Positions 28,992 through 55,996 of a stretch of 64,000 bases of DNA are shown here, one piece after another. Below the pieces are notes generated by a model. It did no database searches and was not told the origin of the DNA. It was given only the letters and a program-made list of their open reading frames with translations. Position 1 is the first letter of the stretch. The number at the start of each line of letters is the position of its first letter. The stretch lies in NCBI GenBank assembly GCA_022511205.1, contig JAFLRY010000002.1, positions 1 through 64,000 of the forward strand. The letters are read 5' to 3'. This stretch comes from Eubacterium sp. Its GTDB lineage: Bacteria > Bacillota > Clostridia > Oscillospirales > Acutalibacteraceae. The translations under genes were made by a program, and so were the position numbers.

Positions 28992-29240
28992 AAAAATACA
29001 CCCCTATGAGATATAGGGGTGTAGAAATCTACACGGTACCACCCTACTTCAGCAGAAAAATCTGCCCTTTAGCATCTGACAATGCCTTAACCTTTAACGC
29101 GGTCACGCGTCTGCCCCTATTAACCGATAGTCTTTTCAAGGCAGCAACTCCACGGAGAGCTATGCATTACAATTTCCGTATCGGCTTTCACCAACCGCCG
29201 ACTCTCTGCAACTGAAAACAATAATCTTTTTCCGCTTCCC
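28990..29240 (-). promoter_or_regulatory. T-box riboswitch leader of leuA
   Basis: Minus-strand T-box AGGGTGGTACCGTG (29032-29045); terminator TACACCCCTAT/ATAGGGGTGTA (28997-29023) + T run; Stem I-like AGAGAGTCGGCGGTTGGTGAAAGCCGA. Confidence 0.9.
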
Positions 29241-29334
29241 AGTCTTTTATGGGTACTATTTAATTAGTAAATTCATTATAACATTAAATTTATAATTGTC
29301 AAGCCCCTTTGTTCCGGGGCTTTTCCGTTTGTGC

Positions 29335-54994: not shown

Positions 54995-55029
54995 AAAAGA
55001 ACGCCTTAACGCGCCATCTTTTTACTGAA

Positions 55030-55136
55030 ACAGAAAGAAGAAAGCCGCTGTATAACACAGCGGCTTTCCCTCTTTCTATAACAAACTATAGGAGGACAAG
55101 ATACTCAGGAACGGTTGCGGCTCCGTTCCTGAGTGT
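55030..55136 (-). ncRNA. Candidate ~107-nt small RNA
   Basis: Promoter at 55143-55171; 5' hairpin ACTCAGGAACGG/CCGTTCCTGAGT (55103-55134); linker with CCTCCT (55090-55095); terminator-like stem AAAGCCGCTGT/ACAGCGGCTTT (55041-55067), flanks AGAAAGA/TCTTTCT. Confidence 0.6.
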
Positions 55137-55142
55137 ATGATC

Positions 55143-55171
55143 ATTATATTATATATTTAACAATTTGTCAA
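55143..55171 (-). promoter_or_regulatory. Consensus sigma-A promoter driving the candidate sRNA
   Basis: Minus strand TTGACA (55166-55171), 17 bp, TATAAT (55143-55148). Confidence 0.85.
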
Positions 55172-55261: not shown

Positions 55262-55290
55262 TTGACAAAGAACAAATGTTTGACTAATAT
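55262..55290 (+). promoter_or_regulatory. Consensus sigma-A promoter
   Basis: TTGACA (55262-55267), 17 bp, TAATAT (55285-55290). Confidence 0.8.
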
Positions 55291-55296
55291 AAGGCT

Positions 55297-55455
55297 TGTA
55301 GACGAAAACCGCCCATTCCGATACTGTCAAACTCATACGAAATACCTTACGGAGACAAAATCCCGCTCCCGCCGATGCCGCAAAGCAAGAACGCCCTAAG
55401 CCCCTTCGCTCCGTAAGGTATTATATTATTCTATATAATAAGAAAGGACAAAGCT
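55297..55455 (+). promoter_or_regulatory. Structured 5' leader with long-range stem
   Basis: AATACCTTACGGAG (55341-55354) perfectly complementary to CTCCGTAAGGTATT (55409-55422), enclosing ~54 nt. Confidence 0.55.
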
Positions 55456-55656
55456 ATGACTATTGAAGAATTAGCCGAGGAATACCGCGGTCAATACGAG
55501 GTTTTAAGCGCGAAAATAGACGGGCTCCGTCCACTTCTATATGTCTATACCGGCGAGGATCTTTACCTGCTTAGAAAGCGGATAAAAATATATTATGATA
55601 TGGCGTATGAATGCAAAAGAATCTCGAAAATGCTTACTGATTATTACGTGGACTGA
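55456..55656 (+). CDS. Small (66 aa) conserved-looking helical protein
   Basis: RBS AAAGGAC; charged helical sequence; followed 12 nt later by an HTH ORF. Confidence 0.6.
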   Translation: MTIEELAEEYRGQYEVLSAKIDGLRPLLYVYTGEDLYLLRKRIKIYYDMAYECKRISKMLTDYYVD

Positions 55657-55667
55657 GGTGTGCCTAA

Positions 55668-55996
55668 TGATGGATTTAATAGATTCTTACTATTCGGGAG
55701 ACGATCGCGATTCAGGCGATCTTGATTCTCAAAAGGTCAGCAGAAGCGCAATATCAAGCGTGCTTCCGCTGATACTGAAAAATGATCTTACCAACCGCCA
55801 GCGTGATTGCCTGAAGATGAAATATGTGGACGAGCTGAATCAGGCAGAAATAGCAAAGCGGCTGGGTCTTTCCCAACCCACCGTTTGCAGGCATATCGCC
55901 ATGGCAAAGAGCATCGTAAACAACAGGCTTTCCTATTGTCTCGTGGTGCTCAACCGCGCAAACAATATGTGGATAAACTGGGAAAATTCGCACTAA
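55668..55996 (+). CDS. Sigma-70 region 4-like HTH DNA-binding protein
   Basis: LTNRQRDCLKMKYVDELNQAEIAKRLGLSQPTVCRHIAMAKSIV. Confidence 0.7.

Follow-up and report, generated by a model that had tools for sequence, protein, structure and literature searches.

A conserved small RNA gene with a near-invariant anti-Shine-Dalgarno core in the Eubacterium coprostanoligenes group, with a proposed role in the translational repression of metabolic genes

In this study, a short minus-strand locus in the window (the stretch of 64,000 nucleotides of Eubacterium sp. DNA that was analyzed, positions 1 to 64,000 of contig JAFLRY010000002.1) is described which, judging from comparison with related genomes, is almost certainly conserved as an RNA gene. 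The best explanation of its product, with a probability of roughly 0.6, is an autonomous trans-acting small RNA of about 107 nt that would use a two-part seed to repress the translation of biosynthetic and metabolic mRNAs. No paper on small RNAs of the Eubacterium coprostanoligenes group was found in a literature search. Since this conserved RNA has a well-defined core and candidate targets that can be named, and since one of the gut commensals that carry it is in culture (E. coprostanoligenes ATCC 51222), post-transcriptional control of metabolism in these bacteria can be tested directly. Furthermore, the juxtaposition of a near-invariant core with freely varying stems offers a clean model for the way in which anti-Shine-Dalgarno (anti-SD) RNAs gain target specificity.

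The whole unit, from the promoter through the end of the RNA, occupies positions 55171-55029 of the minus strand and comprises the following features.

55143..55171, minus strand: sigma-A type promoter of the small RNA, TTGACA-N17-TATAAT, matching the consensus at 12 of 12 positions
55029..55136, minus strand: small RNA of about 107 nt, with a predicted start near 55136 and a predicted end near 55029
55103..55134, minus strand: 5' hairpin of 12 bp, indicated by the fold and by covariation, with a near-invariant loop region (CGGAGCCGCAACCG)
55080..55098, minus strand: core UGUCCUCCUAUAGUUUGUU, near-invariant in both clades, the proposed two-part seed
55038..55070, minus strand: stem-loop of the intrinsic terminator, with a covarying stem, followed by a T/C-rich tail

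The promoter is composed of a -35 element (TTGACA, 55171-55166), a 17-nt spacer and a -10 element (TATAAT, 55148-55143), and the linker between the 5' hairpin and the terminator stem reads AUCUUGUCCUCCUAUAGUUUGUUAU in the window. Every element listed in a preliminary description of this DNA, namely the TTGACA-N17-TATAAT promoter, the 12-bp hairpin, a linker containing UCCUCC and a terminator, is present on the minus strand. The 12/12 promoter with its 17-nt spacer recurs in 61 of the 71 dereplicated loci of the genus and the covarying terminator is kept genus-wide, which bears out the claim of a self-contained small-RNA gene of about 107 nt without an ORF; the terminator itself held good as to the stem and not as to the tail, which reads UUUCUUCUUUCU and so is no clean U-run. 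The predicted fold of the RNA has an energy of -56.2 kcal/mol (z = -9.6), equalled by none of 200 shuffles, and an Rfam scan of the region gave no family at threshold, the sub-threshold matches being weak and scattered over unrelated families. Elsewhere in the window, at 29012-29249 on the minus strand, a T-box leader was recognized (RF00230, 113.9 bits). By prediction, the small RNA is transcribed on its own, probably constitutively. Within the promoter spacer (window 55149-55165, minus strand), the sequence AAATTRTGCAA is also conserved genus-wide; lying beyond the -35 and -10 elements, it may be the site of a regulator.

Homologues of the small RNA were found in about 74 of the 80 genomes of the genus, i.e. 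the E. coprostanoligenes group, which includes ATCC 51222 (contig NZ_FUWW01000001.1), usually as one copy each. BLASTN gave homologues in 48 same-genus genomes, with two partial matches set aside, and the covariance model search that had been suggested in the preliminary description, run with a model (R1) built on 47 sequences, added 26 real homologues among the remaining 32 genomes; weak matches without the core motif were excluded from the count. The matches in genomes G010 and G053 were rejected as spurious because the core motif is absent, and the small RNA was not found in these two genomes, both of which are incomplete assemblies; G022, G041 and G071 likewise gave no homologue. Outside the genus, the matches to the covariance model were weak and had no core motif, except for a homologue in one genome of another genus (G207). 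Across the 47 sequences, changes on both sides were observed in 20 of 28 pairs, with 96.7% of cells paired as against 38-56% when the partner strand was slid, and no shuffle matched the observed values. The signal sits in the 5' hairpin (changes on both sides in eight of nine consensus pairs; 94.6% of cells paired) and in the terminator stem (10 of 14 pairs; 97.6%). The preliminary description had made its proposal depend on conservation of sequence and structure in relatives, and the RNA itself proved to be conserved in both.

The core, GUCCUCC(U)AUAGUUUGU, is almost constant across the genus and consists of the anti-SD motif UCCUCC (55096-55091) and a second block, UAGUUUGU (55088-55081). 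Two clades can be told apart by a single core base (GUCCUCCUAUAGUUUGU or GUCCUCCAUAGUUUGU) and by the loop region of the 5' hairpin, where the sister clade has CGGGCCGCACCG instead of the sequence found in the window. UCCUCC hardly varies and is for the most part single-stranded, its unpaired probability averaging 0.62 over 70 species and standing at 0.77 in the window, in keeping with the earlier assignment to RNAs of the C-rich/anti-SD kind. The linker had also been called exposed, which is accurate for UCCUCC and less so for its surroundings, part of the linker being able to pair (YUGUC/GACAG) in many relatives. This third helix around the core is frequent in clade 1; since it shows almost no covariation and cannot be formed by many clade-2 sequences, it was not counted as structure.

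In the proposed mechanism, both hairpins would be free to vary in sequence provided that pairing holds, the linker between them remaining fixed. UAGUUUGU(UAU) would pair with (AUA)ACAAACUA in the 5' UTR of a target, upstream of the start codon, and the adjacent UCCUCC would pair with the Shine-Dalgarno sequence of the target, with the mRNA nucleotides between the two sites looped out. With the Shine-Dalgarno sequence masked, 30S ribosomes would be unable to bind and translation would drop. The predicted targets, mainly enzymes of biosynthesis or central metabolism, are aspartate kinase, a LysA-like diaminopimelate decarboxylase, aconitase and a PurF-like protein in the genome of the window, and DAHP synthase in relatives. 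As several biosynthesis genes have ribosome-binding sites that the core can mask, the small RNA is probably a brake on translation.

The search for targets in the genome of the window covered 1.49 of its 1.91 Mb. Plain duplex energy at ribosome-binding sites did not beat that of seeds with shuffled flanks, so CCUCC alone does not pick targets. It had been expected at the outset that CCUCCU would pair with ribosome-binding sites and that such pairings would be enriched; the enrichment in energy failed to appear, and what stood was pairing in two parts. The invariant stretch reaches UAGUUUGU, and pairing that combines ACAAACUAU upstream with GGAGG exceeds the controls. When core matches in leaders were scored with one looped-out mRNA segment allowed and with shuffled flanks as the control, five of 1246 leaders reached a score of at least 15, against 0.72 expected. 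The top leader is that of the LysA-like diaminopimelate decarboxylase (lysA; 19 matched, ACAAACTATA-12nt-GGAGGACAA), followed by those of aspartate kinase and a PHP-domain phosphoesterase (16 each), aconitase (15) and a fifth gene (15); gene identities were taken from NCBIfam. In the PurF-like gene, ACAAACTA also occurs upstream of GGAGG. In the few relatives with readable leaders, the aspartate kinase, aconitase and PHP-gene sites proved weak or missing.

ACAAACTAT, which is complementary to the second invariant block, has five copies in the 1.49 Mb. Gene leaders contain three of them, against a density-based expectation of 0.15, and in a relative, G013, two leaders carry the word against 0.23 expected. 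It was singled out only once the top-scoring leaders were known, and the enrichment is modest, with 4% of permuted words doing as well in the genome of the window and 1.7% in G013 (1-6% for nine- or ten-base words). These observations bear on an alternative, judged unlikely, in which the core, which resembles the 16S anti-SD, and the GCCGCA loop would serve as a protein-binding site or would titrate Shine-Dalgarno sequences generally, with no specific mRNA partners. Such a function would suit a core that is invariant far past the usual length of a seed, pairing energies that are unspecific, and the absence genus-wide of any long complementary site above the control (39 non-self matches against 58 for the reversed control). 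However, copies of ACAAACTAT cluster in gene leaders, close upstream of the Shine-Dalgarno sequence, and bipartite matches are in excess over shuffled seeds, neither of which is what a protein-binding site predicts.

Among the relatives, a genus-wide pattern search placed a site before DAHP synthase in six genomes (G006, G010, G013, G045, G057 and G063) and probably also in G053. In the six leaders ACAAACTA lies just upstream of GAGG, and this island is kept while nearby leader sequence differs; the DAHP synthase leader of the window's own genome keeps the site only in part. As the search returned 27 non-self matches and composition-matched words predict about 25, the recurrence of this one gene is the only notable outcome. 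Taken by itself, duplex energy fails to set the targets apart, placing DAHP synthase among the best 11% in G013 and the best 30% in the genome of the window. A second unit resembling a small RNA was observed in G013 (L283:10130-10270, plus strand), with a TTGACA-17-TATCAT promoter, a hairpin, a linker (GUGUCUGUCUAAAACAAACUAUGGGGG) and a terminator. Its linker is complementary to the core of the small RNA (duplex -35.2 kcal/mol), which makes it a candidate sponge; it was not seen elsewhere in the sequence that was read.

Several known RNAs invite comparison. RoxS/RsaE and FsrA of Bacillus and Staphylococcus are C-rich trans-acting RNAs in which a motif can pair with the Shine-Dalgarno sequences of metabolic genes (PMC4409812, PMC8216469). 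The present RNA shares with them its short length, a sigma-A type promoter, an intrinsic terminator and a C-rich motif complementary to the Shine-Dalgarno sequence, whereas its single CCUCC is joined to a second seed, UAGUUUGU, and its range is one genus of gut Clostridia and one genome of another genus; the Rfam scans gave no match to RsaE/RoxS. The alpha-r14 or 'cuckoo' anti-SD RNAs of Alphaproteobacteria, such as NfeR1, have an ultraconserved unpaired anti-SD motif and stems that differ (PMC10746234), and a near-invariant core combined with drifting stems is common to both. However, those RNAs have three hairpins, each with CCUCCUCCC, and the clostridial RNA has two hairpins and one UCCUCC, which lies in the linker that joins them. 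Since it belongs by sequence neither to RoxS/RsaE nor to alpha-r14, the small RNA is, on this comparison, a new family among the C-rich/anti-SD RNAs of the RoxS/RsaE/FsrA sort, with a conservation pattern of the alpha-r14 type. Its role is perhaps like that of GcvB of Escherichia coli, a repressor of the DAHP synthase gene aroG that acts at its translation initiation region (PMC11878033). The likeness concerns only the proposed role, the predicted post-transcriptional repression of amino-acid biosynthesis including DAHP synthase; the seeds differ and no similarity of sequence or structure is claimed. A tentative extension, somewhat doubtful as a whole, is that a rigid RNA with a two-part seed represses amino-acid and purine biosynthesis as a clostridial counterpart of GcvB and is checked by a sponge in some species, the sponge having been seen once, in G013.

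The small RNA is divergent from a two-gene operon in 59 of the 71 loci, at a distance of 237-408 bp, and the operon has the following features in the window.

55262..55290, plus strand: promoter of the divergent operon, with a LexA (SOS) box, TTGACAaaGAACAAATGTTTgacTAATAT, between the -35 and -10 elements; not part of the RNA
55456..55656, plus strand: ORF A, first gene of the operon, a conserved protein of 66 aa without a known domain, found by tblastn in 59 of 71 loci
55667..55996, plus strand: ORF B, second gene of the operon, a sigma-70 region 4 HTH protein (PF04545, E 5e-10)

The box, GAAC-N4-GTTC, has been published as the SOS operator of B. subtilis, and clostridia have been searched for it (PMC4234289). 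At least seven of its eight positions are matched in 54 of the 59 loci, and all eight in 43; a lexA gene is present in the genome of the window, and a weaker version of the box, e.g. GTACATATGTTT, was seen in roughly half of the genus's lexA promoters that were read. This arrangement, a small RNA adjoining a LexA-controlled operon, recalls IstR-1/tisB of Escherichia coli, in which a small RNA lies beside a LexA-controlled gene (PMC8145889), and raises the alternative that a constitutive RNA silences the operon through the ORF A leader until SOS induction. The frequency of the divergent arrangement and the presence of the box in nearly all of these promoters speak for it, as do the complementarity of UUGUCCU in the window's RNA to AGGACAA in the ribosome-binding site of ORF A and the occurrence of GG[AG]CA[AG] in 20 of the 33 ORF A sites of clade 1, compared with 5 of 179 in the background. 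However, six genomes (G002, G007, G038, G049, G051 and G077) hold the RNA with its core unchanged while ORF A is undetectable; the RNA is therefore independent of the operon and would act on its own, unlike a type I antitoxin, the obligate partner of an adjacent toxin gene. In four other genomes the RNA and the A/B operon share a strand, with the operon following downstream instead of diverging. Furthermore, cognate pairing between the RNA and the ORF A leader is no better than permuted pairing (P = 0.11), ORF A pairs overall no better than other genes do, and neither ORF A nor ORF B resembles a small hydrophobic toxin. With the operon lost where the RNA is kept and no preference for cognate pairing, an antitoxin function is distinctly improbable.

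A leader or attenuator acting in cis on coaX, which in the window follows the RNA on the same strand, is ruled out as a general role and has a negligible probability, since coaX has, as had been claimed, a promoter of its own (TTTACA-17-TATAAT, 54993-54965, 11/12) and adjoins the RNA in none of 29 other loci tested, which also deprives the original designation 'upstream of coaX' of meaning.

The ORF A/B operon possibly encodes, by its box and domain content, an SOS-controlled sigma-like regulator for which no description was found. ORF A (about 66-75 aa across the loci) matched no Pfam family and no plasmid, and ORF B gave two weak, partial matches to phages. Homologues of ORF A occur in other genera, and at least one more of them (L221) has a GAACN4GTTC box just upstream. 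Many ORF A mRNA leaders (e.g. window 55297-55455, plus strand) begin with a hairpin that has a variable stem and the loop CCACUC or CCGCCC(C).
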